This document shows, one piece after another, positions 7 through 49,100 of a stretch of DNA of 64,000 nucleotides. The notes under the pieces were generated by a model. That model was not told the origin of the DNA, did no database searches, and saw only the letters and a program-made list of their open reading frames with translations. A program made the translations under genes and the position numbers. Location: the NCBI RefSeq assembly GCF_029542785.1, contig NC_083370.1, positions 1,920,001 to 1,984,000 of the forward strand. The letters run 5' to 3'. This DNA comes from Malassezia japonica (taxonomy: Eukaryota; Basidiomycota; Malasseziomycetes; Malasseziales; Malasseziaceae). The first letter of the stretch is position 1; each line of letters opens with the position of its first letter.

Positions 7-1283
7 ATGGCGCATCACGATAAAGAGACGCAGCGTGCGCCGACGTCGACGTCGCTCACCGTCCTGGACATCTTCTTTCGGTGCCTCGACCGGAATCTCC
101 AAGCAGGCATTTCGCAGGCGACGCTACGCTCTGTGATGCATGCGGACGAATCGCAAGGAGCGGTGCAGCGCTTCTTGGCGGCGTTGAATTCTTCCGGAAA
201 CGTGTCCTCCTTCCCGATGGAAATGGCACTTGCACATATAGGCTCGCCGGCCAAGGTCGTGAAGCGCATGCAGCGCTCGGCATGGTACGCCTCGCGCAAG
301 GTGGACGGCGTGCGATGCGTAACGGTCGTTTCGATAAACGCCAAATCCAAGCGTATCACCGACGTCTATACGCTCTCCCGCAGTGGGCGGCCGCTCGAGG
401 CCTTGGCGCCGTTCCGTGCGCAGCTAGCCGAGGACCTGGGCGCGTATCCCCGCCTTGCGCGCCTGGCGGGCGCCCCCGATGCGAACGGGCGTGCCCACCT
501 TGTGCTTGACGGCGAACTGTGTGCACTGCAGCCCGCCGGCGACGACGGGCGTACGACGTCCTATGTCGAGGACTTTGCGCATACTCTCTCGGTCGTCCGG
601 CGGCAGACGCCCAGCACGACGCCGATCATCTACTTTCCTTTCGATTGCATGCCCCTCGAGGCGTTTGTGTGCTGGCGCACGGCGCTGGAAAGAGGCACCG
701 CCCCCCCTTTTTCCGAGCGCTATGCATCGCTCGAAGCGCTCGTCGCATGGAGTCTCGCCGAGCGCCCCGCGACGTGCCTGCGGCGCCTGGAACAGTGGCG
801 CGTGCGCGACGCCGCGTCGCTCGATGCGCTCGTCGACCGTGCGGCGCATGCGCAGTGGGAAGGACTCATGCTGCGTGAAGACATTGGCTACGAAGGGCGG
901 CGGACGCAGTCGCTACTCAAACTGCGTCCGACGCAAGAGGCCGAGTACGTCGTCCAGGACGTCGTCCTGGCCTCGATGCGTCTCCCGATCAACGGGAAGT
1001 ATGCCGTGTACGAAGCCGTATCGCGTACGTGATTGCGCTAATGCAGACATTGTGATCGATCATGAAGGCGTCCCCGTCTCGGTCGGCTCGGGCTTTTCTG
1101 CCGAGGAGCGGCTGCGGTACGCACAGCACCCCGACGCGCTGCGCGGCAAGACTGTGACGGTTGCATGTACGTGGCCCCACTTACCCAGACTTTCAAGAGT
1201 CCGAGGCCGTGGCGCGTGGCGAGGCACGCTCTCTGCGATTCCCCGTCGTGAAAGGCGTCTACGACGCGGCGCGGACGCTCTAG
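7..1283 (+). CDS. ATP-dependent DNA ligase, short single-subunit type
   Basis: Three exons, 7-1024, 1047-1166 and 1189-1283, separated by two 22-nt introns, give a 410-residue protein. Nucleotidyltransferase motifs appear in order: motif I K-V-D-G-V-R (residue ~98, the lysine that would carry AMP), motif III VLDGEL (~168), IIIa YFPFDC, motif IV WEGLMLRED and motif V LLKLRP. The last ~60 residues, ending SLRFPVVKGVY, resemble the DNA-ligase OB-like domain of small viral and kinetoplastid ligases. It would seal nicks in duplex DNA using ATP. It is far smaller than fungal Cdc9 or Lig4 and lacks their DNA-binding and BRCT regions. The cellular compartment is unknown; mitochondria are possible. 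The ATG lies 7 bases from the window edge, so an upstream exon cannot be excluded. The stop overlaps that of the opposing gene. Confidence 0.8.
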
Positions 1284-3175
1284 CCGAGGTCGCCTCCCAT
1301 CCAGGCGAATACAAGGAAAGCGCAGCCGTACGGCGAGGCGAGCTGCGTGAGTAGAGATACGTACGCGATTCAGCAGGTAGCCGAGCGGCGCCGCGACGCG
1401 CGTCGCGCGCGGGCCATACGATCGCACCGCACGCACGAGGCGCGCGCCCAGCGAGCCCGGCTCGGGCCGCATCGCGCTCAGCAGCGACGTCGGCGGCGGC
1501 GGCAGCGCGGGAGGCGCGGCGCCCCACGGCCGCGGCGCAGACGACTTGCACAGCTCGGGGTAGACAAACGGCCGCAGGAAGTAGGTCTGAGCGAGCAGGC
1601 GCAGCCCCGTCGCGCGCGAGCCCGGCGGCGCCGTGAGGCGCGCGTACCTGAACAGCTTCTCGATCGTGCTCTGTGAGTAGCGTTTCGTGCGCGCCTTGAA
1701 TCGCGCGCGCATCGCGCGCACTTCGCGCGGCGCACGCGGCGTGGCGCGCGGCGTATGCGGTGCGGAGGCCGCGACGACGTTCTCCCGCGCGCTGTTCAGC
1801 AGGTGCGGCAGGCGCACGCGGCGGCGGAGCGGGCGCAGGCGGCGCACCGACTGGGTATGGGAGACGCGGGGCACGGGGTACATGGTGCGGACCGGGCGCA
1901 CGGTGTAGGCGACCGACGCCTGGCGGTGCGGCGGCACGCGCATCTTCGCTGGCTCGCCCATTGCCGACGCCGCGCGCGAGCGTGGGCGCTGAGGGACGTG
2001 CAGGCCGTACCACAGGACCATGCGGATGTACTCGATCGGGCGGCTGACGAGTTCGTAGAGCAGCGCGCCGATCGCGCCGCCGCACACAAGGATCAGTGCA
2101 GCGGTGAAGCGCCCGTACACTGTACGGCTTGCGTTGAACGAAAAGTCGAGGTGCACCGTGCCGTGCTCCTCGGTGTCCTTGGGCCGAGCCAAGGCTCCCG
2201 GCCCTGCGCGGCGCAGCGTGCGCACGATATTGTCTACCGCGAGCGATGCGTGGAATGCGATGCGGCGCGCACACTCGAACGACACAAAGAAGCACGAGAA
2301 GCCGGCCGAGTCACGCAGCAGCGAGAGCATCAAGCTGATGCCGTGCACGCGCCGCGACAAGAGGCGCAGGTGGTGCGGCAGGTGTCGAAAGACGGTCGAC
2401 GTCTTGGGCTCGCGCGCGACGGTGGGTGTCGTCATGCGCAAAATCAGGCGGTGGTACCAGCGTTCCGGGAGGAACGGGAGGATGGCCGCCTGGAGGATCG
2501 TGCGCCAGGTCCCGAGCGGGTGCCGGATGATGGCCGGGATCGTGGTGCCCTTGCTGACGTCGCGCACGAGCAGGCGCTGCAGCACAAGGCGCATATTGTC
2601 CAGCGGTGCCGCGATGATGCACTGCGCGGCGCCCGCCGCGGCGCCTGCAACGGCGACAATGAGCATCGGCGTAAAAGTGCCTGTCTTGACGTTTTCGTCT
2701 TCCGCGTGCCTGCGGCGTAGGAGGAGGTCCTCGGTGAGCGTGTACGTCTGAAAGAGGGTGAATCCAATCGCGACGTTTGCCACTGCATCAGTCGCTTGAC
2801 TTACAGAGCGGCGGGGCGACCAGCGACAAAAGAAGCACGGGCTTCTCGTGCCGAATCAGACGGCGCAAGTACGGCACCCCCAGCTTTTTCCCCTCGCGCC
2901 GCGCGAGCAGCTCTACCAAAGAGAAGGACGAGACTGCGTTAGCACTGCTACGTACACTGCACTGGCCGAAATAAGCGGATCGGGCGCTGGAACATGAACG
3001 AGAGCGAGCTGACCAGGGTCCGTGCAAATGCACCGGCCGCCGAGTCGATGCGGCTCACGCCAGAACGTGAGTCCTTTGGCCCATCGCGCGTGCCATAGTC
3101 CGGCTCTACCGAGTCGTCCGCGACGGCGAGCGACAGGTGCCGCCGCGCCGTCTCCGCCCCCGCTTCGTCGGCCAT
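1280..3175 (-). CDS. Mitochondrial-carrier-like membrane protein
   Basis: Four exons (2956-3175, 2805-2933, 1365-2782, 1280-1342) joined over three 22-nt introns encode 609 residues. The region around residues 140-165 carries a carrier-type P-L-D-x-x-R signature (APLDNMR), and a second P-x-E-x-x-R element occurs in a later hydrophobic segment (SRPIEYIR). Hydrophobic stretches and basic residues suggest a multi-pass, probably mitochondrial, membrane protein of the SLC25 superfamily or a diverged relative. The long Arg/Pro/Ala-rich stretch between the second motif and the C-terminus is not carrier-like. I cannot assign a substrate. The final exon was chosen because splicing removes a frame-shifted, low-quality tail and gives a hydrophobic C-terminus that stops exactly at the converging ligase gene. 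Confidence 0.65.
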
Positions 3176-3249
3176 CCACGAAGGATCGACGCAGTGTAGG
3201 TGGAGGATAGGCGATCGGGCGCCCGATGATTCACAATCCCACTTTCCAT

Positions 3250-4744
3250 CTATCGCCAGCTAGTGGACACGAGACGCGCGAGCGTCTGTAGCGCATAGTG
3301 CTTTACCTGCGAGTCGTCGTGGTCGACAAGGCCCATGATCGCATCCTTGCCGCCGAGCGCGACGACGCGGCGCCGGCCGCCATCGTAAAAGTGCACAAAC
3401 TTGCCGAGGTCCGAGCACGCGACGGCGAGCGTCGTCGCGTCCGAATGTGCCTCGGGCTTGACGAGCGCGACGAGCTCCTTGAGCTCCTTGCCGTCGTGCT
3501 CGACCAGCTTCTCTGCGTTCTCTTTCCAAAAGTCCTCGAGCGTGTGCACCGGGTTGTCAAAGGTGAGGTGCTTGCTGTGAAGCTCGGAAATGTACTCTTC
3601 GTACGAGTTCATCTCGTCCAGGCGCTTGCTGAGCGCGGACGACACATACTTCAGGTCGTCCGTCAGCTCCTGGTCGGAGTAGTTGCGCTCCTCGAGCGTC
3701 TGGCACAGCGGCAGCACCTTGGCGCCGAGCAGGCGCGACGCGTTCTCGTCGTCGGCAGCGAGCATGTTGCGCCAAATACCCACAATCAGGCGCACGATCT
3801 TGTGCTTGAGCGCGGCCTGCGCGGCGCTGGCAAGCGCAGAGGCAAGGCCAAAGTGCGCGTCGATGCCCGACGCGGCCTGCTTATCAAACGTGAGGATCCA
3901 GAGCGCAAAGAGCGCCTGGTACTGCAGCTGGGGCTTGCCGCCGGCTTCGCGCGGCGTCGACGAGCCGCTGCCCGGCGCGCCCGATGTGGTCTGGACCAGA
4001 TTCACAAGCGTCGCGACGAGCGACAGGTTGCCGTCCTTCGCCTCGGAAGCCTGCGCCCAGACCGTGGCGCGGAAAGGCGCCTGGCGCAGGATCTCGCCGA
4101 GGATCGCGAGGGAAATCGGCGCGGCGTTGCCCTCGGAGCCGTCGTCACCGCTGCCGTTCGCAACGGCCTTGAGCTGCTTGTCGATAAACTCGAGCAGCTT
4201 TAGGAGCGCGTCCTTTGGCGGCGCGTCGTAATCGCGCGACGCCTGCTGCGTCGTGAGAAAGACGGCGAGGAGCTGCGCCGCCTTGAGCGAGACGAATGCG
4301 TCCTGCACATCGAAAAGTCTGCGTTAGCACAGCAACGTACTTGAACAGCGACTGGTAGAGCTGCGGCGCATCGTTCTGGTCCAGCGAGAGGAACCAGTCG
4401 AGGTGATCGGGCGCCGCCTGCACGAGGTCGTCGGCAAGCAGCACGACCTGCTGAATGGTATCCGCGCGGCTGAGCTTGCCCAGGAGCTTGGTGTAGAGAG
4501 CAGCGTACTCTGCGCCCTTCTCGATGACAATCTCCATCTTATCCTCGCGCTCGGCGTGCTCCGCGTCGCGGAGCATCTGGAGCTCCTCGGCGCTAATCAA
4601 CTCGGCGCGGTGGTATCCCTCCCACGCCGTCTGCCGGGCCTGCAACTTCTCCGCCGTATCTTCCATCCAGGTGTTCTCGAGAGGCAGCAACGGCGACGTA
4701 GCGACCGCGCGCTCGCCGCGCTTCTCCTGCTTCGCTTCCGGCAT
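3250..4744 (-). CDS. VMA13: V-type ATPase V1 subunit H
   Basis: Two exons, 4341-4744 and 3250-4318, with a 22-nt intron (4319-4340), encode 490 residues, close to the 478 of yeast Vma13. The C-terminal half contains the family block HTLEDFWKENAEKL and the ending ALQTLARLV, with HEAT/armadillo-like helices throughout. Subunit H bridges V1 and V0 of the vacuolar proton pump and is needed for activity and for silencing ATP hydrolysis in free V1. The start MPEAKQEK is the first ATG after the divergent promoter shared with the mL46 gene. The 3' end lies 74 bp from the start of the carrier-like gene on the same strand. Confidence 0.93.
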
Positions 4745-5615: not shown

Positions 5616-5710
5616 CATGTAGCACACTATGAGATATGCCGATGCACTATGATCGATGCGAGCGGTTGAAAGGTGCACGCGCTGGCCGCGCTGGCCGCGC
5701 AGCCAGCGTG

Positions 5711-8341: not shown

Positions 8342-9211
8342 ATGACGACCGTGCCCTCGCGGAGCGTCTTTAGGCCGTGCATTGACCTGCATGGCGGCGA
8401 GGTGAAGCAGATTGTCGGCGGCACGCTACGCAATGCGGCCAAGGGCACCGGGGACGACGAGGCGGCGCTCAAGACCAACTTTGTGGCGAAGCACCCCCCG
8501 TCGTACTATGCCGATCTCTACCGCACGCACCAGCTGCAGGGCGGCCATGTGATCAAGCTTGGCCCCGGGAATGACGCCGCGGCCGAGGAGGCGCTCAAGG
8601 CGTGGCCAAATGGCCTGCACCTCGGCGGCGGCATCACGCTCGAAAATGCCGCTGCGTGGATCGAAAAAGGCGCCGAAAAGGTGATTGTCACGTCCTATCT
8701 CTTCCCCGACTGCCGCTTTGCGCTTGACCGCCTCGAGGCGCTCGAGCAGGCGGTCGGCAAGGAGCGACTCGTTGTCGACATCTCGTGCCGCCGCCGCGGC
8801 GATGAGTGGGTGGTCGCGATGAACCGCTGGCAGGACCTCACCGACATGGTCCTCTCCAAAGCGTCGCTCGACCTGGTCTCGGCGCACTGCAGGTATGTAT
8901 CCAGGCTAACCAAGCGAACTACTGATCCATGCGGCAGATGTCGAGGGGCTGTGCCAAGGCATCGACGAGGAGCTCGTCCAACGTACGTCGTCGCGCAACT
9001 CATCCAGGCCTCGGCGAATGGGTGTCGATCCCTACGACCTATGCGGGCGGCGCACGCCGTACGTATCTCTACTCACACAGACCTCGAGGACCTCCAGCTG
9101 GTCGACCGCCTGTCCCGCGGACGCGTCGACCTCACCTTTGGCAGCGCCCTGGACATTTTCGGCGGCCAGGGCGTGACGCTCGCGGCGCTCTGCGCGTGGA
9201 ACGGTTCATAG
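8342..9211 (+). CDS. HIS6: ProFAR isomerase of histidine biosynthesis
   Basis: Four exons (8342-8892, 8915-8982, 9008-9058, 9081-9211) encode 266 residues, near the 261 of yeast His6. It isomerises ProFAR to PRFAR, step four of histidine synthesis. Conserved TIM-barrel elements are RPCIDLHGG (first catalytic Asp), LHLGGGI, LVVDISCR, LIHAADVEGLCQGID (second catalytic Asp region) and VDLTFGSALDIFGG. Introns are 22, 25 and 22 nt. The first ends in AAG rather than CAG; only that acceptor restores SELLIHAADVEG. A GTG lies 12 bases upstream in frame, but the ATG at 8342 is taken as the start. Confidence 0.95.
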   Translation: MTTVPSRSVFRPCIDLHGGEVKQIVGGTLRNAAKGTGDDEAALKTNFVAKHPPSYYADLYRTHQLQGGHVIKLGPGNDAAAEEALKAWPNGLHLGGGITLENAAAWIEKGAEKVIVTSYLFPDCRFALDRLEALEQAVGKERLVVDISCRRRGDEWVVAMNRWQDLTDMVLSKASLDLVSAHCRYVSRLTKRTTDPCGRCRGAVPRHRRGARPTYVVAQLIQASANGCRSLRPMRAAHAVRISTHTDLEDLQLVDRLSRGRVDLTFGSALDIFGGQGVTLAALCAWNGS

Positions 9212-9246: not shown

Positions 9247-12007
9247 ATGGACGGTTTTGTGGGCCAGACGGGTGCGGCAGGCCATGCGGGCCTGTCGCTC
9301 TCCGACATTCTGCAGCAGTCGCGCAAGCTCACGAACCAGCTCGGCCGCGACTCGGACCTGCCGTCGATCCAGCTCGGAATCGACCAGATCGAAAGCCAGA
9401 GCCGGAAGCTGGCGAGCAAGAGCGTGCGCAACGGCAACCCCGCGGCGGACGCGCGCGCGTACGTACCTGTGCTAACGCAGTCATTACCTGCTTGCGAGTG
9501 GTGGCATCGATGCCGCCCAGCTCTCCAATGCGATCCAGCACACAAACATTGCGAATACCTTTGAGCCGCTCCAGCCGGTGTACGACACAGACATGGAGGG
9601 CTTTATCCAGCACGAGCACGAGCAGGTAATCCTGAGCATGATCGAAGAGAGCCGCCGGCAGACGCTCGACGACTTCCAGCACAAGCTCGGCGACGGGCTG
9701 CACCAGGACTGGCAGAACCAGAAGCGACGCATCCTCGAGGAGCTCGGCCAGCACAAGCTCGACGAGGGCGACACCGTGTCCGGCGTGCCGGGCGGCCTCT
9801 CGTTCCGCCGCTCGACGACCAGCATGCCGAGTGTGCCGCAGTCGGCCGCGGACGAGGCGTTGAACGCGTCGGTGCTGCACTCGCGCATCATTCGCTACGA
9901 TACCGTGATTGCGCGCCTGAACAAGGCGCGCGTCGATCACGAGCCCATCCCGCTCATCCACGCTTTGATGGAGATCGTCGAGGGGATCGTGCAGGAGCCG
10001 GCTCGCAAGCGCGGCCTGCTCGACGCATGGACCGTGCTCAAATACATGGTCCACGAACAGGGCGCGCTGCCCAAGCCGGTGCAGGAGCGCGAGTACGCCG
10101 CGGCGTACATGGACCTCGACGCGTTCCACAGCGCGCCCGGCCTCGCCCTCCGCAAAAAGTGGGTCGGCGGCGCGCGCGCCTACCTCGAGGCGCAGTTCGC
10201 CGAGTACATGGAGCAGGTCATTGCCGCCTCTCCGTTGCAGGCGCAGCGGGGCGGCGTGCCGACCGTGCGTGCGACCGTCGCGGCATTCCTCCGCGCACAG
10301 CTGCGCACGCCGCAGAACGCGTGGGTCGCGGGCATCGCACGCGAGATGGACCAGTCGACCGACACGCCGCTCTGGGCGAACCTCTTTTACCTGATCCGCT
10401 CGGGCCACGCGAGCGACGCGCTGCGCTGTGCGCACGAAAACGAGGCGAGCCTGCAGCGCGCCGACCCCTCGTTCCTGGCCTACTTCAAGGCGTGGATCGA
10501 CGCAGAGGACCGCCAGCTGCCCAAGAGCATGAGGGAGCATCTCATGGCCGAGTACGTGACGCGCTTCCGCTCGGTCGCGCTCGACGCGCAGGACCCCTAC
10601 CACTACACTCTCTACCGCCTCATGGGACGCTTTGACACTGCGAAAAAGTTTCCGCAGCCGCTCGTGTCCAGCACGGAAAACTGGCTCTGGCTCCAGCTGT
10701 GCATGGTCACGGAATCCGCCGAGGGCGACGCGCAGGACCCCACGCTGCGCACGCACACGCTCCACGACCTCGCGCAGAAGCTCGAAAAGTACGGCGAGGC
10801 TCACTTTGACCCCAAGGGCACGCGCCCGCTGCACTACTTCCAGCTCCTCTTGCTCGTCGGCGAGTTTGAAAAGGCGATTGCTTTTCTGCACGCGCGCGCA
10901 GCCTACCAGGTAGACGTGGTGCACTTTGCCATCGCCCTGACCTACTACGGCCTCTTGCGCGTCCCGGCGGCGTCCGAGACGTCGCAGTTTGATTACCTCA
11001 CCGTCGTCCAGCGCGCCAAGGGGCCCGTGGCGCTGATCGACTTTGCCAAGCTTATCCAGCGCTACACGCGCCTCTTTGCGCAGTCGTCGCCGCGCGACGC
11101 GATCGCCTATATTAGCCTCTTGTGCCTGAATGCCAAGTGCCCGGCGCCAGTGGGCGGCGAACAGGTGCAGCGGTGCCACGAGCTGGTGCGCAGCCTGATC
11201 CTCGAGGCTCCGTCGTCGTCCTTTGTCGAGCTGCTCGGCGACGTGCGCGCCGACGGCACGCCGGTGCCGGGTCTCATTGAGCAGCACCTCGACGCGCTGC
11301 ACCTCGGCGACAAGCGCGAATTTGTGCGCAAGATTGTCGAGTCCGCCGCGAAGCAGTGCGAGCGCGAGCAGCGCACCACCGACGCGATCCTCCTCTACAA
11401 CCACATCGGCGAGCACGACACGGTGATCTCGGTGCTGAACCGCGAGCTGGGCGCGACGCTCATGGAGCCGGTCAGCCTGAGCGAGTGGCAGACGAACGTC
11501 GACGCGGGCTCCGCCGCGACGCTCTCGGCCGTCTCGAGCTTGGTGACGCTCGCGCGCGGCATTCTCGCGAGCTACGAGCAGCACTACAACTATCGGGGCG
11601 CGCCGGGCCTCGTGTGCCAGACGCTCCTGGGCCTCAAAAAGGCCGTGTCACTGTACAATGACAACCAGCTGCTCCCGGCCCTGCAGACGCTCGAGGCGCT
11701 GCACCTGCTCCCGCTCGACGCCGAGGCGCGCAAGGACGTGGTATCCATCACGCGCAAGGCGGAGGAGTTCAAGACCTACGACGAAAACATCACCAAGAAC
11801 TTTTCCGATATCGTCCTGATGGCCATGACGCTCCTCTACAAGCTGCACCAAGAGCTCAAGAACTCGATCACGCGCTCCAACTCGGGCGCGCTGTACGAGT
11901 ACCGCAGCCAGGCGCGCGCGTTGATGATGTGGGCGGGCATGCTCCGCTTCCGCATGAGCAACGAGACGTATAGCCAGCTGACGCGTCTCGATGTCTATAT
12001 CCACTAG
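9247..12007 (+). CDS. NIC96: Nucleoporin Nic96/Nup93
   Basis: Two exons, 9247-9458 and 9481-12007, with a 22-nt intron encode 912 residues, close to the 839 of yeast Nic96. The N-terminus is coiled-coil-like (LSDILQQSRKLTNQL, QIESQSRKLASKS), matching the region that binds the Nsp1 complex. The rest is an alpha-helical solenoid with family blocks such as RKKWVGGARAYLE and DTPLWANLFYLIRSGHASDAL. Nic96 is a scaffold of the inner ring of the nuclear pore. The intron sits early, just before HYLLASGGIDAAQL, which is the conserved continuation. Confidence 0.93.
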
Positions 12008-14640: not shown

Positions 14641-15418
14641 ATGGCGGAGCGCGCTGTTGGGCGGGGGGCGCTGTGTGCGCGCCAAGCCTTGCTCGTCCAA
14701 TCGTACGTAACGCGACTGACACAGCGCCCGGCTCTGCGACACTGGGGCATGTCCGGACGGTGTATACGCCACGCCAGACACGGACGACTTTCTGCGTAGG
14801 TTTTTCTTTCTGATGCAGGATGGAATGGTGTCGTGTTTATTCGCAAGGGCGCCTATGCACCGGGCGTGTTTCGGTTTAGCATCCAGTTTGATATAAAGGG
14901 CGAAGAGCTCACGGTGCCTACGGTGTTTTTCCCGCCTATCTTGCTGCACCCACTGGTCGAGGTAAGTTTTTCTGGTCTTATCCAGCCCGCCAATGGCCGC
15001 CTCAACATGCTCCCTTTTTTGGCGTTTGCTCAAGAGAGGGCGTGGCCGGTCGATCCGGCCGACCCTGCGTTCCTCTCGTGCTTGATGCACTTTGTTGCCG
15101 AGATCTTTGACGATAACATGCTTCAAGGCCTCCTCGGGCAATGGGTCTTGAACGAACGAATGTATACGTACGTCGCCCATCTCACCCAGTCTATTCAAGA
15201 GCGACCGGCCACTCTTTGACCGGCTTGCGTCGCAGTCTGCAAGCCTCTCTACGTCCGAGCCCAGCCTGTACGATACGCACTCTGGCAGCGGCGTGCCGGG
15301 CGACCGGGATGTGTCGCTTGCACAGCCCTATGCCACATCATCTTCGCATGGCGCCCTCCCCTTTGCACCCGTGGGTGATGAGGAAGTGACACGGACCCGC
15401 GACCAACTCTTGACGTGA
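14641..15418 (+). CDS. AKTIP/FTS-like UEV (inactive E2 variant) protein
   Basis: Five exons (14641-14702, 14725-14795, 14819-14961, 14986-15167, 15190-15418) with introns of 22, 23, 24 and 22 nt encode 228 residues. The E2-like core reads GVYATPDTDDFLRWNGVVFIRK, split here at the second intron, then GAYAPGVFRF and LLHPLVEPANGRL. The catalytic cysteine region of true E2s is absent, as in animal AKTIP (Fused Toes), which joins Hook proteins and FHIP on endosomes linked to dynein. The motif MYTLFKSDRPLFDRL matches the C-terminal helix of that family. The third intron is a multiple of three, so reading through it would add eight residues. The tail is Ser/Asp-rich. Confidence 0.8.
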
Positions 15419-34902: not shown

Positions 34903-34924
34903 GTACGTGGCGGGACTAACGCAG
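34903..34924 (+). other. Putative 22-nt intron in the 5' UTR of TIF5
   Basis: The 22 bases start GTACGT and end CTAACGCAG, identical in layout to the coding introns. The acceptor is 4 bp before the TIF5 ATG. A TAA in the frame just upstream means it cannot extend the coding sequence, so it would be a leader intron. Confidence 0.6.
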
Positions 34925-34928
34925 CACG

Positions 34929-36267
34929 ATGACGATTGTGAACATCCGCCGTGACGTAGACGACAAGTTCTACCGCTACCGCATGCCTCTGCTGGAGATC
35001 AAGATCGAGGGAAGGGGTAATGGTATCAAGACGGTGGTGCCCAACATGTCCGACATCGCCCGCGCTTTGAGCCGCCCCCCGTCGTGTACGTCGTGTGACT
35101 GACTCAGACCCCACCAAGTACTTTGGCTGCGAGCTCGGCGCGCAGACCGTGATTGATGAAAAGGGCGACCGTTACATTGTGAATGGTGCTCACGATGCGA
35201 ACCGCCTGCGCGAGCTCCTCGATGGCTTCATCGACAAGTTTGTCCTGTGCGGCGAATGCAAGAACCCCGAGACGGATCTCAAGATCCGCGACGGCGACAT
35301 TCTGCGCGACTGCAAGGCGTGCGGTAAGCGCACCTATGTCGACATGCGCCACAAGCTGACGACCTTTATCAGCAAGAACCCTCCGCCGAAGCGCGCCAAG
35401 GGCACCAAGGGCGCCGGCGCCGCCTCGGGCCAGACGGTCGGTGCCGGAGACGAGGGCGAGGACGGCGGGAGCGACGACGAGCTCACGCGCCGCATTGCCG
35501 CCGAGGCGCAGAACATCCCGACTGCCGAGCAGCGCGCCGCCGACAAAAACGTCGACGAGGACTGGTCGGTGGACACCTCGGAGGCGGCCGTCGCTGCGCG
35601 TGTCAAGGCGCTCGAGGGCTCGATGAGCAATGTCCTGTCGATCGATGACGAGGAGGAAGACGATGAGTCTTCGCCCTACTCGCAGCTCGGTACGTGGATC
35701 CTCGAGACGCGCGAGGCGGGCAATGCGCTCGGCGCCGCCGAGGTCTACCGCAAGGCGCAGGAGCTCGGCATCGAGAAGAAGCACAAGACGCTCCAGGTAC
35801 TCTTCCAGGCGCTCTTTGACGACAAGGCGCCGCAGCAGGTCGACCAGTACGCGCCGATGCTCGTCAAGATGGTCACCTCGGAGAAGCACCAAAAGGCCAT
35901 GCTCGGCGGTATCGAGCGCCTTGCGGGTCTTCAGCATCCCTCGCTTGTTCCGAACGGTGTCCCGAAGCTGCTCATGGGTCTGTACCAGATCGATGTGCTT
36001 GACGAGGAAATCGCGCGCCAGTGGGGCACGCACGTCTCGAAGAAGTACGTCGACAAAGAGACCTCGAAGCGCGTGCGCAAGGCCGCTGCTCCTTTCCTCG
36101 AGTGGCTTGACCAGGCCGACAGCGACGATGAGGACGACGGCGAGGACGACGACGAGGACGACGGCGAGGATGACGGCGACGAGGATGGCGACGAGGACGA
36201 GGACGCGGCCGGCGACGCGGCCGGCGACGCCTACCAAAAAGGCGACAGCGACCTCGACGACTTGTAG
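34929..36267 (+). CDS. TIF5: Translation initiation factor eIF5
   Basis: Exons 34929-35085 and 35108-36267 (22-nt intron) encode 438 residues. The N-terminal GAP domain shows [20 protein letters not shown], with the catalytic Arg near residue 15 of the known family, and [24 protein letters not shown] and a CGEC...CKACG zinc ribbon (~105-130). A W2/HEAT domain occupies ~200-390. The tail after residue ~398 is almost pure Asp/Glu/Gly. eIF5 stimulates GTP hydrolysis by eIF2 at start-codon recognition and scaffolds the 43S complex. The intron joins NRPPS-like text to YPTKYFG, exactly as in the family. Confidence 0.96.
36121..36230 (+). repeat. GAC/GAG trinucleotide-rich tract in TIF5
   Basis: A nearly uninterrupted run of GAC, GAG and GGC codons encodes the acidic eIF5 tail. 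It ends with two copies of the nonamer GCGGCCGGCGAC-type unit encoding A-A-G-D. Such tracts are prone to length change. Confidence 0.75.
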
Positions 36268-36296: not shown

Positions 36297-37057
36297 ATGG
36301 CCGGGGCTTGGCCGCAGGGAACGGCGCCGTGGGCGTCGTCGTATACGCTCGGCGCGCCGCGCCAGGCACATAGCACGGGCACCTATGCACTCCCTGCGTC
36401 TGTCGAGGACGTGCGGCCTGCCACAATTCCCGATATCCTCGAGCGGCCGCGCGACAAGACACGCGCCAGCGAAGTGAGCACCAGCGCGCTCCAGTTCCTC
36501 TTTGCCGAGATGGTCGCCTACGCACAGCTGCACGTCTCGGGAATCGCCGAGTTTGAGCGGCTGCTGAGCACGATGGGCATGCGGGTGGGCCAGCGCGCGC
36601 TGATCCTCCTCGCGCACCGCCGCGAGACGAGCACGAACCCCAAAAAGCCGCGGCGCGAGACGCGCCTCTTGCCCACGCTACTCTGGGTGCACTCGACGCT
36701 GTGGAAGGCGGTTTTTGGCATGCAGGCTGATAACCTTGAGCGCAGCACGGAAGAGGGGCGCAGCGACGAATGTAGGTCGTTCTACTGACGCAGACATGAT
36801 CTCGACCAACGACCCCCTCTTTTCGCGCGGCATCTCGATTCCCAAAGAGATGACGCAGCTGAGTGTCGAGGCGTTTGCGGCCGGCATTGTCGAGGGCGCC
36901 CTCGAAGGGCTTGGATTCGTACGTCGCCTACCTCACACAGCCCGCACGCGTCACGGCGCACGGCGTGCCGACGCCCCAGCATCCACACCGTACAACGATC
37001 CTCATCAAGCTCGAAAAGAGCGTGATGGAGCGCGAGGCGACGATGGGTGGACCGTAG
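36297..37057 (+). CDS. TRS31: TRAPP complex subunit Trs31/TRAPPC5
   Basis: Exons 36297-36771, 36794-36918 and 36941-37057 encode 238 residues over two 22-nt introns. Family blocks are ILERPRDKT, EVSTSALQFLFAEMVAYAQ, GMRVGQRALILLAHRRE, LWKAVFGMQADNLE, then EYMISTNDPL (restored by the first splice) and FAAGIVEGALEGLGFPARVTAH (restored by the second). Trs31 belongs to the TRAPP core that activates Ypt1 and tethers ER-to-Golgi vesicles. A 40-residue low-complexity N-terminus precedes the domain. Confidence 0.92.
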
Positions 37058-40307: not shown

Positions 40308-41319
40308 ATGGCGGCGGTCATTGAGGATGCGCAGCCCGCGACGCTGCAGAGCATTGTGGACCAGAAGACGCTAAAGTGGGTCTTTTGTGGTGGTAAGGGT
40401 GGTGTCGGCAAGACCACGACGTCGTGCGCGCTTGCGATCCAGCTCGCCAAGGTGCGCGAGAGCGTGCTGCTGATTTCCACCGACCCCGCGCACAACCTGT
40501 CCGATGCCTTTGGCCAGAAGTTTGGCCGCGAGGCGGCCAAGGTGAACGGCTTTGACAACCTGAGTGCGATGGAGATCGATCCGACGAGCAGCATGCAGGA
40601 GATGATCGAGCAGTGTACGTCACACGACTAACGCAGCCGAGCAACAGGGCGGTGCGATGGCGCCCTTTATGCAGGATCTCGCCTTTGCGATCCCGGGTGT
40701 AGACGAGGCGATGGGATTTGCCGAGATCATGAAGCTCGTCAAGTCGATGGAGTACAGTGTGGTGGTGTTTGACACGGCGCCGACCGGCCACACGCTGCGC
40801 TTCCTGTCCTTCCCGTCGGTGCTCGAGAAGGCGCTGGCCAAGTTTAGCTCGTTTGGCAAGAGCCTCGGCCCGATGTTCTCGCAGCTGTCTGGCATGATGG
40901 GCGGCGGCGCTGGCTCGCAGGAGGACATGTTTGCGAAGCTCGAGTCAATGCGGCAGGTCATCACCGAGGTCAACACGCAGTTCAAAGACGCGTCCAAGAC
41001 GACCTTTGTGTGTGTGTGCATTGCCGAGTTCCTTTCGCTCTACGAGACGGAGCGCCTGATCCAGGAGCTGACGCAGTACGACATCGACACCCACGCGATT
41101 GTCTGCAACCAGCTGCTCTACCCTCCCCCGGGTTCGAGCTGCGAACATTGCCGTGTGCGCAAGGCGATGCAGGAGAAGTACGTCCACGAGATGATGGATC
41201 TGTACGCGGAGGACTTTAATGTCGTCAAGGTGCCCCTCCTTACCGAGGAGGTGCGTGGCCCGGCCAAGCTCGAGGCGCTCTCGCAGTATCTCATGACGCC
41301 GTACGAGCCGCCTAAGTAG
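40308..41319 (+). CDS. GET3: Guided-entry ATPase Get3 (TRC40/ArsA family)
   Basis: Exons 40308-40614 and 40637-41319 (22-nt intron) encode 329 residues. The deviant P-loop reads [12 protein letters not shown], switch [11 protein letters not shown], switch [12 protein letters not shown], and the dimer-bridging zinc motif CxxC appears as SSCEHC. The Met-rich segment [13 protein letters not shown] belongs to the client-binding groove. Get3 delivers tail-anchored proteins to the ER receptor Get1/Get2. Splicing restores [19 protein letters not shown]. The stop lies 1 bp from the stop of the opposing NAT3 gene. Confidence 0.96.
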
Positions 41320-41320
41320 T

Positions 41321-41964
41321 CTATACGCCAGGATGTACGTAGGGTGGGAAGATGGTCGCCCTGTGTTAGCACACGTACGTACTCGGGCCGCACGACGACA
41401 TTGCGCCCATTCTTGCGCACCGTCTGCCCCTTGGCGTCGCGGGGAAGCGGCTTGCGCATGTCTGTGTGAGCAGAACGACGTACCGAATCCGTCTTCCATC
41501 GCCCCGGGCGCGCTCCCGCGGTAGTATGCATGGACTTTGCGGTAGACAGAGTAGCCCCGCTTCTCGTACATGCCCACCGCCTTTTCGTTCGAGGGACGCA
41601 CGAACAAATCGACAAAGTACGCGTGGTATACGTGCTCCGAGACCACCTCGAAAAAGTCCATCAGCATCTGTGCGACGCCCAGGCGGCGGTACTCGGGCGC
41701 GACGGTGACCGCCGTGACGTGCCCGTGGAGCGTCATCTCCTCCGCAGACGCACGCCCTTTCGCAGGGACACGCCCTTCGGTCTTGCCGAGCACGTAGCCC
41801 ATCATCCGGTCCGAGTGCGCGGCCACCGCAGAGAGCGCCATGTCCGGCCATTGTGCCAGGTAGTTTAGGTAGAATCCATTGCTATACGTCTCCGTCCAGT
41901 TGTCCATATTCACATTGTTGAACGCAAAGAGGTCAGCCGCCGCAAACGGCCGCACGGTCGTCAT
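41321..41964 (-). CDS. NAT3: NatB N-terminal acetyltransferase catalytic subunit
   Basis: Exons 41484-41964, 41383-41461 and 41321-41360 encode 199 residues over two 22-nt introns. The GNAT core shows NNVNMDNWTETY, the acetyl-CoA loop VAPEYRRLGVAQMLM, VDLFVRPSNEKAVGMYEKRGY and VYRKVHAYY, as in Naa20. The second exon reads DMRKPLPRD, the conserved C-terminal element. NatB acetylates N-termini starting Met-Asp, Met-Glu, Met-Asn or Met-Gln. The second intron begins GTACGTACGT, giving two overlapping donors; only the first (22-nt) keeps a short tail that stops before GET3. Confidence 0.9.
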
Positions 41965-42008: not shown

Positions 42009-43509
42009 ATGGCAGCCGCTCACCGCCGCCTGGCGAACGTCGCGGCGGTGCATGTGCGCAACCTGGAGGTGGACGAGGAGGTGGATGCAGCATCGATCCA
42101 CGGGGCGCGGCGTGCCTCGACGTCTTTCTCGGCGTACACACCGTCGGTGCGCAGCGCGCATATGATGCAGGAGCACGACAGCGTCGTCTCGTGCTTTGTC
42201 TCGCTCCGGCGACCGGGCGGCGTGCCGTTCTATGTCACGCCGCCCTCGGCCGCCGGGCGCCACGCCTCCTGGGGCGAATATACCAGCCCGCCTATCCGGC
42301 CGGCAGACGACTTTGCGGCGTGGGCGTGGCCCGCGGACGAGCCGACGCTGCTCGTGGGCCTCTACGCACGCAACCACGGCTCGCGGCCCGAGCCGTGGCA
42401 GTGTCTGTGGGAGACCGAGGTCGACCTGCACACGCTCCCGTCGCGCGGGGGGCAGCTCGGCGCGATCGGCGACGCGCGCGACAACGTCGTGTACCTCGGC
42501 CTGCACTCGACCGACGACGACGGCCAGCTCGAATACGTCGCCGTGGACGGGCTCGCGACACACGAGCCAGACGTCGAAGAGGCAGGCCGCCGCGCCATGC
42601 TCCTGTCGATGGTCGAGACGCAGATGAAGCGCAGCTATACCCTGCCGCAGGCGTGCTCTTTGGTGCACATCCAAGGCGACCTCGCTTCTCTTCAGCAAAC
42701 GCAGCACGCGCTTGCTGCGCGGTGCGGCGGCGCGCTATCGGACGACACGGCGCTCTGCCGCAAGCGGCGGCAGCTCGAGACTCGGCACGCCGCCAAGGAC
42801 CTGCGCCGCACGCTGCAGCGCCGCAAGGACGAGCTGAGCGAAGCGCACACCACGCTCGTCCAGACGCGGCTCGCGCTCCAGCAGCGGCGCGAACACCTTG
42901 CACACGGGAGCACGCTGCTGCGCGAGACGCAGGCGCGGCGCACAGCCGCCGCATCGTCGGCCGCCGAGCAACGGTACGTACATCATCTAATCCAGGGACC
43001 GCCTCGCGGATCTGCAGCGTATGATCCAGCAACACCGCACGCGCCTCATGCGCGAGCTCGAGTTTATCTATCCTATCCAGCTCGAGGATGCGCGCGCGCT
43101 GCTCTATTCCATTGCGGGCCTCGCGCTGCCGAACGGCGTGGCGACGACGCACCCCAAATCCGGCGCGCTCGTGCACAAGACGCACCTCGAGGACACGGCG
43201 TCGGCGCTCGCGCTTGTTGCGCAGATCGTTCTCCTCGCGAGTACCTACCTGCACACCAGCCTGCACTATTCTCTGCGCGCGATCGGCAGCCGCGCCGTGG
43301 TGCAGGATGGGATCAGTGTCATGTCGGGCCCCCGCACCTTTGCGCTGTACGGAAAAGGCACCGAGCCGTACCGCTACGAGTACGGTGTCTTTTTACTCAA
43401 CAAGGACATTGAGCAGCTGATGATGGCGCACGGCGTGCCGGTGCTGGACCTGCGCAACACGCTGCCGAACGTGAAGAATTTGCTGGTGACGCTCGCCGCC
43501 GCCCCATGA
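42009..43509 (+). CDS. VPS38: UVRAG/Vps38-like PI3-kinase complex subunit
   Basis: Exons 42009-42973 and 42996-43509 (22-nt intron) encode 492 residues. A C2-like N-terminal region (~60-190) is followed by a coiled coil at ~230-345 (RRQLETRHAAKDLRRTLQ...). The C-terminal BARA-like domain has LEFIYPIQLEDARALLYSIAGLALP and the hallmark ending VFLLNKDIEQLM then LRNTLPNVKNLLVTL. This matches the UVRAG/Atg14 superfamily. The C2-like N-terminus argues for UVRAG/Vps38, the endosomal subunit of the Vps34 complex, rather than Atg14, which has an N-terminal Cys-rich zinc motif that is missing here. Confidence 0.82.
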
Positions 43510-43560: not shown

Positions 43561-45772
43561 ATGGTGCTGGTCTGCCGCCCGCGCGAGACGGGCGACGCGC
43601 ATGTGCGCGCTGCAGGCACACTCGAGTTCGCGGATGCGTACAGACATATATCGCGCGTCTCGCGGCAGCGCGTGCTCGGCGATCCCGGGACGGCGGCGCC
43701 GGGCGGCGCGACCGTCTTGATCCTCACCACGCCGCTGGTCGACTCGCTGGCGGCCGCGCGCATCTTTACGCGCCTGCTGGCGGACGACGAGATTGCGTTC
43801 CGTGTGGCTCCGGTCAATGGCTACCGTGCGCTGCAGCAGATCCTCGCAGAGGACGTCGAAGGGCACTTGGAGGTAGGTCGCCTTGCTCACCCAGTTGCAC
43901 ACGCTCGTGTTTCTGAATCTAGGCTCGCTGATGCCGCTACCGACGTCGGTGCCACTGCCGCCAAACTGCACGCTGCATGTGCTCGACTCGCACCGTCCGT
44001 GGAATTTGAGCAACTTGTTCGCAACCTCGCAGATCAACGACCACATTTATATCTGGGACGACGGCGAGGTCGAGGAAAGGCTCGGGCGCGAGCGCGAGGC
44101 CTACGAGATGCTCGAGTTCGACGTCGACTCGGACTCGGAGGAGGAGGATAGCGAGAGCGAAGGCGAGGCGAGTGATGATGCCCAATCGGATACCCCGGCC
44201 ACCGACCGGCCTGCGAAGCGCGCACGCACCCCGGGCGGCGAGTCGCACACCAAGCGCCGCCTCGACGGCGAGCAACGCAATGTCTACCGTGCAGTCCTGG
44301 CCAAGTACTACTCGCGGGGGAGCTGGACAGGGATGAGCGCTGCGCAGATGATGTACCTCCTCGCCGTCTCGCTCGGCCGCGGCGACCGCGACTGCCTCTG
44401 GTACGCGGTGCTGGGCCTCACCTCGCAATACATCTCGAATGCGATCCACGCGGGGACCTACGAAGGCTACGCATCCGCACTCGCTTCCGACGTCGTGGCG
44501 ATGTCCGCGGACGACCCGCGCCCGGCAGAGATCCGAGGCCTGCGCGACGTCAACATGCACGGCGCCGACGACTCCGCCGTGCGCGTCGTGCCAGACGAGC
44601 TCCGCTTCACGCTCTATCGCCACTGGAGTCTGGAGACGAGCATGTACCATACCAGCTATGTCGCCGCTAAGCTCGGCATCTGGCGCGAAAAGGGAATCAG
44701 CAAGCTGCGTGGCCTGCTCGCCAAGATGGGCCTGTCGCTCGCCAACTGCCGGCAGACGTACGAGCACATGGACCTCGACCTGCGCAACTCGCTCGTGAGC
44801 CGCATGGAATCGATTGCGCCAGAGTACGGCTTGACCGACCTCGTCTTTCAGTCCTTTACGCGCTCGTACGGCTTCCGCTCCATGCCGCTCAGCGCGTCAG
44901 ACGCGGTAGAAGGCATCTCGGCGCTCCTCCAGGCGGCGCACGGCGTGCGCGTCGAGGTGGAAGGCGTGCAGATCGTGCGCACGGACTCGGTCGCGAGTAC
45001 GCGGTCCGTGGACAATGCGGCGGACCGCGGCGCATCTTCGTACGGCGGGCGCACGCTCTGGAGCCTCAGCGACACCGGCGTGCACGTCGGCGCGCGGGGC
45101 ATTGACGAGGCGGACAACGACCCCGCCGACGACCGCGACAGCGCAGACTGGGAAAACACCGCGTCGGCTACCTGGGTGCAAAACTTCTTCGAGGCATACC
45201 GCGCGATGGACGTGCAGAAAGCGTCGAGTATCCACCTGTTGCAAAAGTCGCTTACGTTGGCCAAAGCGCTCCACCAAGCGATTGTTGCGCAAGGCGTGAC
45301 GATTATTGTGAAGCAGTCCATCAAGACGCTGCGCTCCTTCCGTCTATCCGTGCTACAAGACGGTCCCCAACTGAACCTATTTGTGCACCCCGACACCCTG
45401 ACACGCCTCGGCTTTTGGCTGATCGACGCGTTGCGCGACATTGTCAGCGAGCAGGCCGAGCGGCGCGCGGCCGCCAAGCGAAGCAAACGGCGCAGCAAGG
45501 ACGATGCCGGACAGTCCGAGCAGCACACGCTGCAGTCGCTCCCGTTCGTCCTCGCGGCGCTGGACAAGGCACGCGACGTGTACATCGTCGTCGGCATCGT
45601 CGGCGCGCCCGACTACGGCGACGTGGGCCGCAACCGCTTCGGCCTCGCGTTCCAGGAAGCTGCTGCGAGTAGCGGTGCACGCATGCGCAATGACCGCTTC
45701 GACTCGAGCGTCCTGGAGGTGAAGCGCGATGATCTATTGGCGTTTGTTGAGGCGCTGCACCTGCAGGCTTAA
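43561..45772 (+). CDS. CDC45: DNA replication initiation factor Cdc45
   Basis: Exons 43561-43872 and 43895-45772 (22-nt intron) encode 729 residues. N-terminal DHH-like elements include TTPLVDSLAAARIFTRLL and APVNGY. Splicing gives ELHTLVFLNLGSL, then HVLDSHRPWNLSNLF and INDHIYIWDD. An acidic stretch (DVDSDSEEEDSESEGEASDD) and a nuclear-type basic segment PAKRARTPGG follow, as in other Cdc45 proteins. The C-terminal half has ETSMYHTSYVAAKLGIWREKG and VVGIVGAPDYGDVGRNRFG. Cdc45 joins Mcm2-7 and GINS to form the CMG replicative helicase. The upstream codons are non-ATG; 43561 is the first ATG. Confidence 0.95.
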
Positions 45773-46170
45773 TGCGTAGAAGGAGTCCTGTGCATGCAGG
45801 CACGTGGCATAAAATCGTGGTGGTGAACATCATCACGTGAGTAGCTTTTGCACCTTGTGATTGGTGTATTGTTCCGGCCGGGCGGGCCGCGGCTGAGATC
45901 AGCGCTGGGTAGTCGGGCCGACTCAACCACGCCCCCTGTTTGCACGCAAGTCGGACATTACGCGCCGAGAGCCAACGCGAGCGCGGCTGAATTCATAGCT
46001 GCAAGTTTCGACGCGTCGCGAGACGGTGAGAGCAACACTTGTGGCCTGTCCCGCCCGTATCTATAGGTAACGGACCATCCCGTCCCTCTGCCCTCCCTCC
46101 CCCTTCCCATCCAAGCCCCTTTGGCCCTGCCCGTGGAAGCGTACACGCGGCGAATCGCGTATACGTGTAA
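45773..46170 (+). promoter_or_regulatory. STH1/SNF2 upstream region
   Basis: This 398-bp intergenic region follows CDC45 on the same strand. It holds CACGTG at 45801-45806 and 45834-45839 and a pyrimidine-rich tract at about 46077-46115, 55-95 bp before the start codon; such CT tracts are common in fungal promoters. I see no RNA gene. Confidence 0.5.
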
Positions 46171-49100
46171 ATGGAGGCAGGTTCTTCCAGTACGGGGAGC
46201 ACCCCAGCCCCGAAGGGCCCTGAGCGGCCTACGAATCCTTCATCCTTGCCCCAGGGCACGCCAGGTGGCGATGCCCCTTCCTCGGGGCCGACGAGCCTCT
46301 TGAGCCAGTTGCCGATTCAGGCGCAACGCCAGCTGGCCGGTATGACCAAGGAGCGCCTGCAGCAGATTGTTTCTGTACGTATCCCGCCTAACACCAGCGC
46401 ATGCAGCAACTCAAAGCTAGCGGTCAGACCGAGCAATCCAACCAGGAATACGCGTCGCTCGTCCAGACCCTCAAGGCGTTCCAATACTTGCAACAGCTGC
46501 GTATGCAGCAGCTCGCGTCACAGCAACCGACCCCACCTGCGGACGCCGCGGCATCGTCCAACGCACCAGGCACCCCTTCGGCAGACGCGGCGCCCAACGC
46601 CGCCAACGTGTCGTTTCCGGGCGGCAGCGGCCCAGCGCTTTCGAACGAGCAGCTCTCTACGCTCCGCAACCAGGTTGGCGCGTTTAAGCAGCTCGCACGG
46701 AACCAACCGATGCAGGGTCAGCTCCAAAGCACGCTCACTGACGCGCCGAAGCCGGACGCCGAGGCCAAGACCACGCCGCCGACCAGCACCACCGTCACGG
46801 CCAAGCTCGCGGACGCGGCCGCCGACTCGCACGCCGCGCTCCTCGCTGCGAACGGCACCGAGGCGCTCAAGTCGTCCGAAACAACGACACCGAAGCCGGC
46901 GTCGTCCGACGAGTCGTCCGCCGACGCGCCTCGTGCCGCGACGCCCCAGGACGATCCGTCGAGCTCGGTTTATCCCTATAACGCGTACTTGCATCCCTTT
47001 ACGCTCCTGGCCAAGCCCAGCACCAAGGGCGGCGACGACCTCGCATCGATGCAGCAGCGACTATTGATTCCGAGTCTGCTGCCGGCTGGCATCGACGCTC
47101 GCCTCCTGCTGGAGGAGCGCGACCGCTTTGTGCGTGGGCGCATCCAGCAGCGCATCCGCGAGCTGGAGTCTTTCCCGTCGACCATGGCCCAGGTGCCGAC
47201 GGCCGACGCGGCTGCGCAGTACAACCAGACTTCGCTGCAGGACCAGCTGAGCGGTGCCGCAGGCCGCGGTCACAACGCCAAGGTCAAGGCGCTGATCGAG
47301 CTCAAGTCGCTGCACCTCCTCGAGCGCCAGCAGCAGCTGCGCGAGAAGGTCGTGGCCAGCATGCAGCTTGCCACGACCCTCGGCCTCGACCGCTCTGCAT
47401 TCCGGCGTGTTCGCAAGCAGGCGCTGCGTGACGCTCGTGTCACAGAGCAGCTCGAGCGCAAGCAGCGCACGGAGCGCGAGCGCAAGGCGAAGCAGCGCCA
47501 CACGGACTATCTGTCCATGATCTGTGCGCACGGAAAGGACCTCTTGGCTGCTCAGAACAAGGCGTCCGACCAGGCGCGGCGTATCGGCCGCCTGGTGCTC
47601 AAGTTCCATGTGGATACAGAGCGCGAGGAGCAAAAGCGTGTGGAGCGCATCGCCAAAGAGCGTCTGAATGCGCTCAAGGCCGACGACGAAGAGGCCTACT
47701 TGAAGCTCATTGATACCGCAAAAGATACGCGTATTACGCACCTTCTGCAACAGACCGACGCTTACCTGGACAACCTCGCCCAGGCCGTGCAGGCGCAGCA
47801 GAACGACGATGCCCACGCCGACTTTACCGTGGACAAGCGCATGACGGCTGACGACGGACAAGGCGTGGACGAGACGACGTTTGGCGCCGCCCGCCAGGAC
47901 GACCCCGGCGAAGACACTGGTCGTGTAGACTACTACTCTGTGGCGCATCGCTACTCGGAGAAGATCACGGAGCAGCCCTCAATTCTTGTGGGTGGCAAGC
48001 TGAAGGAGTACCAGATGAAGGGTCTGCAGTGGATGGTGTCTTTGTACAACAACCGACTGAACGGTATTCTTGCTGATGAAATGGGTCTCGGCAAGACCAT
48101 CCAGACCATCTCTCTGATTACCTTCTTGATCGAGTCCAAGAAACAGAACGGACCGTACCTGGTGATTGTGCCGCTCTCCACGTTGACCAACTGGGTGAAC
48201 GAGTTCAACAAGTGGGCGCCGTCTGTTTCGACGCTCGTGTACAAGGGTACGCCGAGCGTGCGTAAGCAGCTGGCCGCGCAGCTCAAGATGGGCACTTTCC
48301 AAGTACTCTTGACCACCTATGAGTATATTATCAAGGAAAAGAACCTCTTGGGCAAGATCAAGTGGACCCACATGATTATTGACGAGGGTCACCGCATGAA
48401 GAATACCCAGAGCAAACTCACTGTGACGCTGACGCAATCCTACTCGAGCCGGTACCGTCTCTTGCTGACGGGTACGCCGCTGCAAAACAATCTGCCCGAA
48501 TTGTGGGCGCTGCTCAACTTTGTGTTGCCCAAGATCTTTAACTCGATCAAGAGCTTCGATGAGTGGTTCAATACACCCTTTGTCAACACCGGCACTGGTG
48601 AGAGCAACATGCAGCTCAACGAAGAAGAGGCACTACTCATCATCAAGCGTCTGCACAAGGTCCTGCGTCCCTTTTTGCTGCGCCGTCTTAAGAAGGACGT
48701 CGAGAGCGAGCTGCCCGACAAGGTGGAAAAGGTTATCAAGTGCCGCATGAGTGCGCTGCAGGCCAAGCTCTACCAGCAGATGAAGAAGCACAAGATGATT
48801 GTGAGCGACATCGGTGGGCCGGGCAAGGGTGCAAAGCCGACAGGTATCCGTGGTCTGCAAAACGCCATCATGCAGCTGCGCAAGATCTGTAACCATCCCT
48901 ACGCGTTTGAGCAGGTCGAAGCGGCGATCAATCCTACGAAAGAGAACGGCCCCGACCTCTTCCGCGTCGCCGGCAAGTTTGAGCTGCTCGACCGCATCCT
49001 TCCGAAGCTCTTTGCTACGGGCCATCGCGTTTTGATTTTCTTCCAGATGACGGCGATCATGGATATTATGGAAGACTTTATGCGTTTCCGTGGCATCAAA

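Follow-up and report, generated by a model that had tools for sequence, protein, structure and literature searches.

A genome-wide class of putative spliceosomal introns of exactly 22 nucleotides in the yeast Malassezia japonica, and an apparent floor on their donor-to-branch distance

Here we describe a dominant class of U2-type spliceosomal introns of exactly 22 nucleotides (nt) in the yeast Malassezia japonica. The class was noticed in a 64,000-nt stretch of contig NC_083370.1 (positions 1,920,001 to 1,984,000 of the forward strand, here called the window), and at the level of DNA sequence it is confirmed across the whole genome (8,433,779 bases in 9 contigs, with the window on contig C1); that these elements are spliced, and that the branch site assigned to them is used, we infer. 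A strict motif that is 22 nt exactly, GTACGT-N7-CTNAC-N-CAG, has 1784 matches genome-wide, and the reversed pattern that serves as its control has 0. When the same signals are counted at other lengths, there are 5 matches at 15-21 nt (control 3), one of them nested in a 22-mer of the window, and 446 at 23-45 nt (control 13); 22 nt thus takes 79.8% of the strict-motif matches, with a wall below it. Above it the numbers fall away quickly: the first 100 matches listed of the 446 comprise 46 at 23 nt, 16 at 24 and 15 at 25, the remainder thinning to 34, and scaling from those 100 puts the drop from 22 to 23 nt at 1784 to about 205, roughly nine-fold. The preliminary description of this DNA had proposed tabulating intron lengths genome-wide, with a broad distribution counting against the class; carried out on motif-defined introns, the tabulation gave a sharp peak at 22 nt and so does not count against the class. 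The strict-motif counts show both a narrow length distribution and a hard lower limit, and the mode is 22 nt rather than a value in the ultra-short range of 15-21 nt.

The same length emerges when other features are taken as the starting point. In a 254 kb sample (the window plus 19 scattered stretches, a masked twentieth being left out), a looser motif occurs 80 times at 22 nt, which by simple scaling corresponds to about 2,650 per genome. With the 3′ motif CTNACNCAG as the sole anchor (99 places, both strands), a GTRNGN donor lies exactly 22 nt back in 64, compared with about 1 per length at 60-120 nt; with GTACGT as the sole anchor (234 places), a branch motif and YAG end are found at 22 nt in 58, at 23 in 8, at 25 in 6, and at 21 and 18 in 1 each. 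Since 22 mod 3 is 1, removal of such an intron moves the coding frame by 1, and this shift is seen at 70 of the 80 candidates in the sample and at 46 of the 49 with confident frames, whereas at control donors lacking the 3′ motif the frame stays unchanged (1512 of the 1592 that could be scored with confidence). A gene finder that has no length preference across 15-120 nt and rewards donor and branch-like motifs called 131 introns in 113 genes of the sample: 56 of 22 nt, 12 of 23, 1 of 24, 7 of 25, 4 of 26 and 0 under 22, in agreement with the strict counts on the lower limit.

What is constrained appears from these sequences to be the distance between donor and branch site, as a one-sided floor with a tail of lengths to about 35 nt, and not total length. 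This distance was examined in a 325 kb set with GTRNGT donors, in which introns are grouped by the number of nucleotides after the branch A and the position of that A is counted from the donor (A17 for position 17). In the 5-nt class there are 121 at A17, 13 at A18, 9 at A20, none at A14-A16 and 4 scattered at A10-A13; the 121, though not the other classes, is inflated because the set takes in loci picked for the strict 22-nt pattern. The 6-nt class has 8 at A17 and none at A10-A16, and the 7- and 9-nt classes, which are empty at A14-A16 and hold 1 and 2 introns at A17, agree with the floor though they are sparse. Genome-wide, the 6-nt class has 146 matches over A10-A19 (control 1), and the first 100 listed of these fall at A17 (65), A18 (17), A19 (17) and A13 (1), with none at A16, so the minimum for introns with 6 nt after the branch is 23 nt, with one 19-nt outlier among the 100 listed. 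A fixed total of 22 nt predicts that the 6-nt class should peak at A16, whereas it peaks at A17, which points to a rule that the branch A stands at position 17 or later; on that rule 22 nt is the commonest length because the floor of 17 is combined with the commonest step of 5. The molecular ruler suggested in the preliminary description is therefore right in that a length constraint exists, and needs amending in what is held fixed, which would be how far the branch A lies from the donor (position 17 or beyond), and this on one side only. A two-sided ruler, in which the machinery prefers a total of exactly 22 nt and disfavours shorter and longer introns alike, would account for the 79.8% share and for the nine-fold drop to 23 nt, yet we consider it unlikely, given that the minimum moves to 23 nt when the step is 6 (A17 65 and A16 0 among the 100 matches listed) and that a tail extends to about 35 nt whereas shorter lengths are at control level.

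The anatomy of the introns can be read from the consensus of the 56 introns of 22 nt found by the length-neutral gene finder. Positions 1-6 read GTACGT (with C at +4 in 86%), 14-15 CT, 17 A, 18 C or T, and 20-22 CAG, which bears out the earlier account of a GTACGT-like donor and a branch motif merged with the terminal YAG, five nucleotides after the A. The GT donor, YAG acceptor and CTNAY branch are those of U2-type introns, and in place of the AC or ACAC linker between branch and AG that goes with fused introns of the Yarrowia and Trichomonas type, the A is followed by C or T, any base, and CAG. The stretch between branch and 3′ end, 5 nt after the A in most introns, holds no pyrimidine tract. 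The spacer of 7 nt carries 0.06-0.55 bits per position and the neighbouring exon bases at most 0.28 bits; spacer positions 9-11, ahead of the branch, are C or T in 61-83%, mostly C. A recent mass gain of an introner-like element of 22 nt would make the class uniform through copying instead of shrinkage, and the uniform length, the strong common consensus and a weak added bias at positions 8, 9 and 11 of the spacer are what it would lead one to expect. We nevertheless regard such a gain as quite improbable: the information in the spacer is low, the length tail is joined to the class (23-26 nt) as expected from shrinkage, and at the one position compared the M. yamatoensis orthologue reads on at the same junction into residues compatible with a GT-initial intron, so that the position looks shared. 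Spacer positions 7-11 have a weak preference for C, G, C, any base and C following GTACGT, for which no partner is known, and several longer introns (23-35 nt) have T runs that lie not past the branch but in the stretch leading to it from the donor.

In the window, a fixed rule (a donor at least 4/6 like GTACGT, a CT.A whose A has 5 nt behind it, and a YAG end) finds 27 places at 22 nt, where the remaining lengths from 16 to 45 nt, with 22-25 left out, average 0.73 places each (log10 Poisson P = -32). The second-highest length is 18 nt with 6 places, all 6 nested in the 22-mers. Ten first-order Markov (Markov-1) simulations under a slightly different rule give a mean of 0.9 per strand at 22 nt, against 16 and 10 observed, and the simulations, the other lengths and the reversed-pattern controls together rule out a chance origin. 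One of the 27, 25768-25789 (donor GTACAA), was rejected as an intron since it sits within a coding exon of an Arf-like gene, leaving the 26 exact 22-nt introns that the preliminary description had counted; all seven of the coordinate pairs it gave as examples (1025-1046, 1167-1188, 4319-4340, 9459-9480, 20577-20598, 33718-33739 and 43873-43894) are GT...YAG 22-mers at those very bases, with 4319-4340 and 20577-20598 on the minus strand. The 26 candidates, followed by three slightly longer ones, are these:

1025..1046, plus strand, 22-nt intron: motif, gene finder, frame shift of 1
1167..1188, plus strand, 22-nt intron: motif, gene finder, frame shift of 1
1343..1364, minus strand, 22-nt intron in a mitochondrial-carrier-like gene: homologue alignment spans the junction; shift not seen by frame score alone
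2783..2804, minus strand, 22-nt intron in the mitochondrial-carrier-like gene: homologue alignment spans the junction
2934..2955, minus strand, 22-nt intron in the mitochondrial-carrier-like gene: homologue alignment spans the junction
4319..4340, minus strand, 22-nt intron in the V-ATPase subunit H gene: gap-free alignment to PDB 9bra_U over the junction, codon 163
9059..9080, plus strand, 22-nt intron: motif, frame shift of 1; the gene finder chose a 59-nt version with the same 3′ end
9459..9480, plus strand, 22-nt intron in a Nic96-like gene (by-eye reading): motif, gene finder, frame shift
14703..14724, plus strand, 22-nt intron: motif, gene finder, frame shift
15168..15189, plus strand, 22-nt intron: motif, gene finder, frame shift
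20474..20495, minus strand, 22-nt intron in an Nse4-like gene: frame opened by splicing; Pfam Nse4 domain past the junction; missed by the gene finder
20577..20598, minus strand, 22-nt intron in the Nse4-like gene: reading frame, frame shift; missed by the gene finder
25671..25692, minus strand, 22-nt intron in an Arf-family GTPase gene: spliced protein matches Pfam Arf (212.6 bits, 8-145); missed by the gene finder
25797..25818, minus strand, 22-nt intron in the Arf-family GTPase gene: same Pfam Arf match of the spliced protein; missed by the gene finder
28765..28786, plus strand, 22-nt motif, probable intron: motif, frame shift; less certain
33718..33739, plus strand, 22-nt intron in a glutamyl-tRNA synthetase-like gene: Pfam Anticodon_2 stretch 359-501 covers the junction, codon 420
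33910..33931, plus strand, 22-nt intron in the glutamyl-tRNA synthetase-like gene: Pfam Anticodon_2 stretch 359-501 covers codon 477
34903..34924, plus strand, 22-nt intron ahead of eIF5, immediately 5′ of its start codon: motif only; eIF5 ATG downstream at 34929
35086..35107, plus strand, 22-nt intron in eIF5: gap-free alignment to yeast eIF5 6fyx over codon 52
36772..36793, plus strand, 22-nt intron: motif, gene finder, frame shift
36919..36940, plus strand, 22-nt intron: motif, gene finder, frame shift
40615..40636, plus strand, 22-nt intron in GET3: spliced protein of 329 amino acids aligned over 6-329 to PDB 3ibg_A; codon 102 gap-free, with a small gap six residues on
41361..41382, minus strand, 22-nt intron in an acetyltransferase gene: motif, by-eye reading frame; no shift by frame score; missed by the gene finder
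41462..41483, minus strand, 22-nt intron in the acetyltransferase gene: reading frame, frame shift; GNAT domain ahead of the junction; missed by the gene finder
42974..42995, plus strand, 22-nt intron: motif, gene finder, frame shift
43873..43894, plus strand, 22-nt intron in the Cdc45 gene: motif, gene finder, frame shift; Cdc45 named from a PDB match, with the junction outside the alignment shown
14796..14818, plus strand, 23-nt intron: motif, gene finder
15995..16019, plus strand, 25-nt intron: motif, gene finder
46375..46397, plus strand, 23-nt intron, branch A at position 17 and followed by 6 nt: motif, gene finder

The gene finder recovered 17 of the 26, and the remaining 9 are placed by motif, frame score, by-eye reading or, for two, Pfam. 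The best coding frame moves by 22 mod 3 at 24 of the 27 window candidates, the one in the coding exon (25768-25789) being among the 24; the exceptions are 1343-1364 and 41361-41382, each close to a C-terminus and the former homology-confirmed, and 34903-34924, which lies immediately 5′ of where eIF5 starts. Ten junctions lie inside regions conserved in homologues (three in the mitochondrial-carrier-like gene, two each in the Arf-family GTPase and glutamyl-tRNA synthetase genes, and one each in eIF5, V-ATPase subunit H and GET3), and the Arf-family GTPase with its 22-mers retained meets a stop after 36 amino acids. That the 22-mers are unspliced frame-breaking insertions, pseudogenes or assembly errors is hardly credible even with DNA sequence as the only evidence used here, in the face of 1784 exact motif copies against 0 reversed, a frame shift of 1 at 70 of 80 candidates, and conserved housekeeping proteins restored over the junctions. 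The candidate at 28765-28786 is less certain because the gene finder put a minus-strand gene there. The one at 34903-34924 has a perfect 22-nt motif that ends four bases ahead of the eIF5 ATG, and it would be an intron of the 5′ untranslated region.

Several parts of the machinery that would have to handle these introns can be found in the genome. The U2 small nuclear RNA (snRNA) has an intact GUAGUA branch-pairing box and the U6 snRNA an intact ACAGAGA box. SF1, U2AF65 and Slu7 are all present, which led us to reject loss of any of the three as the cause of the short introns; a loss of Slu7 had been predicted from the 5-nt branch-to-3′ distance, and this prediction failed. SF1 keeps its helix-hairpin, KH and zinc-knuckle domains. 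In the SF1 gene (locus L006, about 150-190, minus strand) the helix-hairpin domain is split across two frames at a C homopolymer, as an assembly error or a real frame break. U2AF65 lies in one open frame on contig C9, identical to MJAP1_004289, and scores 224.4 bits, below the NCBIfam cut-off of 310.3.

It is in U2AF65 that a change can be seen. Among 112 homologues, 99 of which (those longer than 380 residues) were placed in a tree, 18 proteins form one clade with support 1.0, and six of these bear Malassezia names. The three aromatic residues of the RNP motifs in RRM1 (each Y, F or W), which we take from human U2AF65 to be contacts to the pyrimidine tract, are all kept in 0 of the 17 scorable proteins of the clade, compared with 79 of 83 other homologues; site by site, an aromatic stands in 4, 9 and 8 of the 18. 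The aromatic set of RRM2 is kept in 4 of 18 clade proteins and in 90 of 93 others. Mean identity within the clade is 0.49 for RRM1, the lowest of the three domains, with RRM2 at 0.62 and the UHM domain at 0.64, and outside it the values are 0.67, 0.80 and 0.67; because RRM1 is below RRM2 outside the clade too, the argument from conservation is weakened. Two Pfam RRM_1 stretches are found in 2 of the 6 proteins with Malassezia names and in all 4 of the other basidiomycetes examined, a result that does not tell which of the domains these stretches are. The RNA-binding RRMs of U2AF65, RRM1 above all, thus seem to have been eroded across the Malassezia clade, and of the splicing-factor changes that the preliminary description had proposed to look for, one is thus seen in U2AF65, while SF1 keeps its full set of domains.

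The explanation we favour, and think probable, is a steric minimum on the donor-to-branch distance onto which the introns have shrunk, a model of the kind put forward for mikrocytids (PMC10245619). They would be ordinary U2-type introns reduced to the smallest form that the fungal spliceosome accepts, and the wall would mark the shortest RNA able to hold the 5′ splice site (paired with U1, then with the ACAGAGA box of U6) and the branch helix (with the GUAGUA box of U2) at the same time, with only about 5-7 nt of linker left between the two. A deletion bias would shorten introns until the two helices could approach no further, and they would pile up at the minimum because shrinkage had carried them to the wall. 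Since just 5 nt separate the branch from the end of the intron, U2AF65 would lack the space to read a pyrimidine tract there, and the 3′ end could be defined instead by SF1 and U2 binding at the branch plus a fixed 5-nt step to the first AG. A bolder version holds that the whole genus has rebuilt its major spliceosome on a fixed geometry, with the branch A essentially never before position 17, a fixed 5-nt 3′ step, and a U2AF65 that no longer reads a tract while keeping its protein-bridging parts; this we offer tentatively, leaning somewhat against it. If it were true, the 22-nt intron would be a natural minimal substrate, from which one could read how near the helix at the 5′ splice site and the helix at the branch can come to each other in a spliceosome that is almost complete.

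Several points weigh against the steric minimum, or against parts of it. Besides splicing and branch use, we infer what causes the wall, in which direction the introns evolved, and that U2AF65 is linked to them. The fall from 22 to 23 nt is steep for drift against a floor alone, and may owe something to selection acting directly in favour of the shortest form. The floor is not seen in two sparse classes of the 325 kb set: the 4-nt class has single matches at A15, A16, A17 and A21, and the 11-nt class has two matches at A14 plus a third at A15. The spacing counts need branch-like motifs, to which introns with unusual branch sites are invisible, and 51 of the 131 gene-finder introns are spread over 28-120 nt with each length occurring at most 3 times; we take these 51 to be mostly frame or gene-merge artefacts, without proof. 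The short C-rich stretch upstream of the branch could still act as a signal. U1 snRNA was not found with Rfam RF00003, for which 41 of 132 candidates were scored and the E-value limit was relaxed to 10, while U2 and U6 were found at once, and a single U1 sequence pattern gave zero matches in the genome; U1 may be strongly divergent. As for U2AF65, the link to the introns is a correlation in one clade, six of whose 18 members have histidine at the first RRM1 site (RNP2), and four proteins outside it (P0089, P0100, P0110 and P0112) likewise lack the full RRM1 set. M. restricta, presumably of the same clade, has an annotated median intron of 30 nt (PMC9241646).

Introns near this size are known from few systems. 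In heterotrich ciliates (Stentor) introns are 15-16 nt long with the branch A at the 10th base (8005 introns, 90.90%; PMC9505925), and M. japonica resembles them in its narrow length class and near-fixed branch A, but differs in its 22 nt, its branch at 17, its strong donor and branch consensus and its GC-rich fungal genome. Mikrocytid introns measure 16-17 nt and those of chlorarachniophyte nucleomorphs 18-21 nt, and for mikrocytids it has been proposed that a deletion bias presses introns down to a functional minimum (PMC10245619). The size range in M. japonica is similarly narrow; those are reduced intracellular genomes, however, with 224 predicted introns in Mikrocytos, in contrast to at least 1784 strict-motif matches of one length in M. 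japonica, a yeast whose 8.4 Mb genome has SF1, U2AF65 and Slu7. The earlier placement of the class near the lower limit outside ciliates and nucleomorphs had overlooked the mikrocytids (PMC10245619). Yarrowia, Trichomonas and Giardia have introns in which branch and 3′ splice site are fused, the distance from branch to AG is fixed and a 3′ pyrimidine tract is missing (PMC2483917), and M. japonica shares the short, fixed branch-to-AG distance and the lack of a tract past the branch. Unlike all three, it has the motif CTNAC-N-CAG with the donor side pinned too; Yarrowia introns are much longer (table row figures 204 and 268.75; PMC2483917), and the type B introns of Trichomonas vaginalis, of 23-25 nt, number only 24 (PMC12316389). 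A length of 23 nt is still described in that 2025 paper as "among the shortest known", with Stentor and Bigelowiella as the only comparable cases (PMC12316389).

Within the genus, M. restricta has 2,150 annotated introns with a mean of 37.2 and a median of 30 nt (PMC9241646), the prediction having used minimum lengths of 20 and 15 (PMC6473144), and annotated introns of M. globosa average 79 nt (PMC4634964). Short introns are thus shared with M. japonica, whereas the available excerpts state no 22-nt mode or spacing floor for M. restricta or M. globosa. We found no prior report of a 22-nt fungal class or of a spacing floor in a limited set of listings and excerpts from the open-licence literature. 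Searches for other Malassezia DNA found none for 4.2 kb of the window among plasmids, none for eIF5 in a genome-contig collection (55 pattern stretches, 0 confirmed) and none for GET3 in a viral-contig collection (1 stretch, unconfirmed).

The class would add a yeast to the few lineages with ultra-short introns, and the question of a minimum intron length would become a testable spacing rule, with the branch at 17 or later. The correlation with U2AF65 would serve as a natural experiment that shows which parts of a splicing factor persist once its RNA ligand disappears. Tiny introns may also corrupt gene models in this medically relevant genus of skin fungi. The annotated protein P0115 of the sister species M. 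yamatoensis ends five residues past the junction at 1343-1364, and those residues are compatible with reading into a GT-initial intron; that it apparently reads into a tiny intron suggests that public gene models can miss them.

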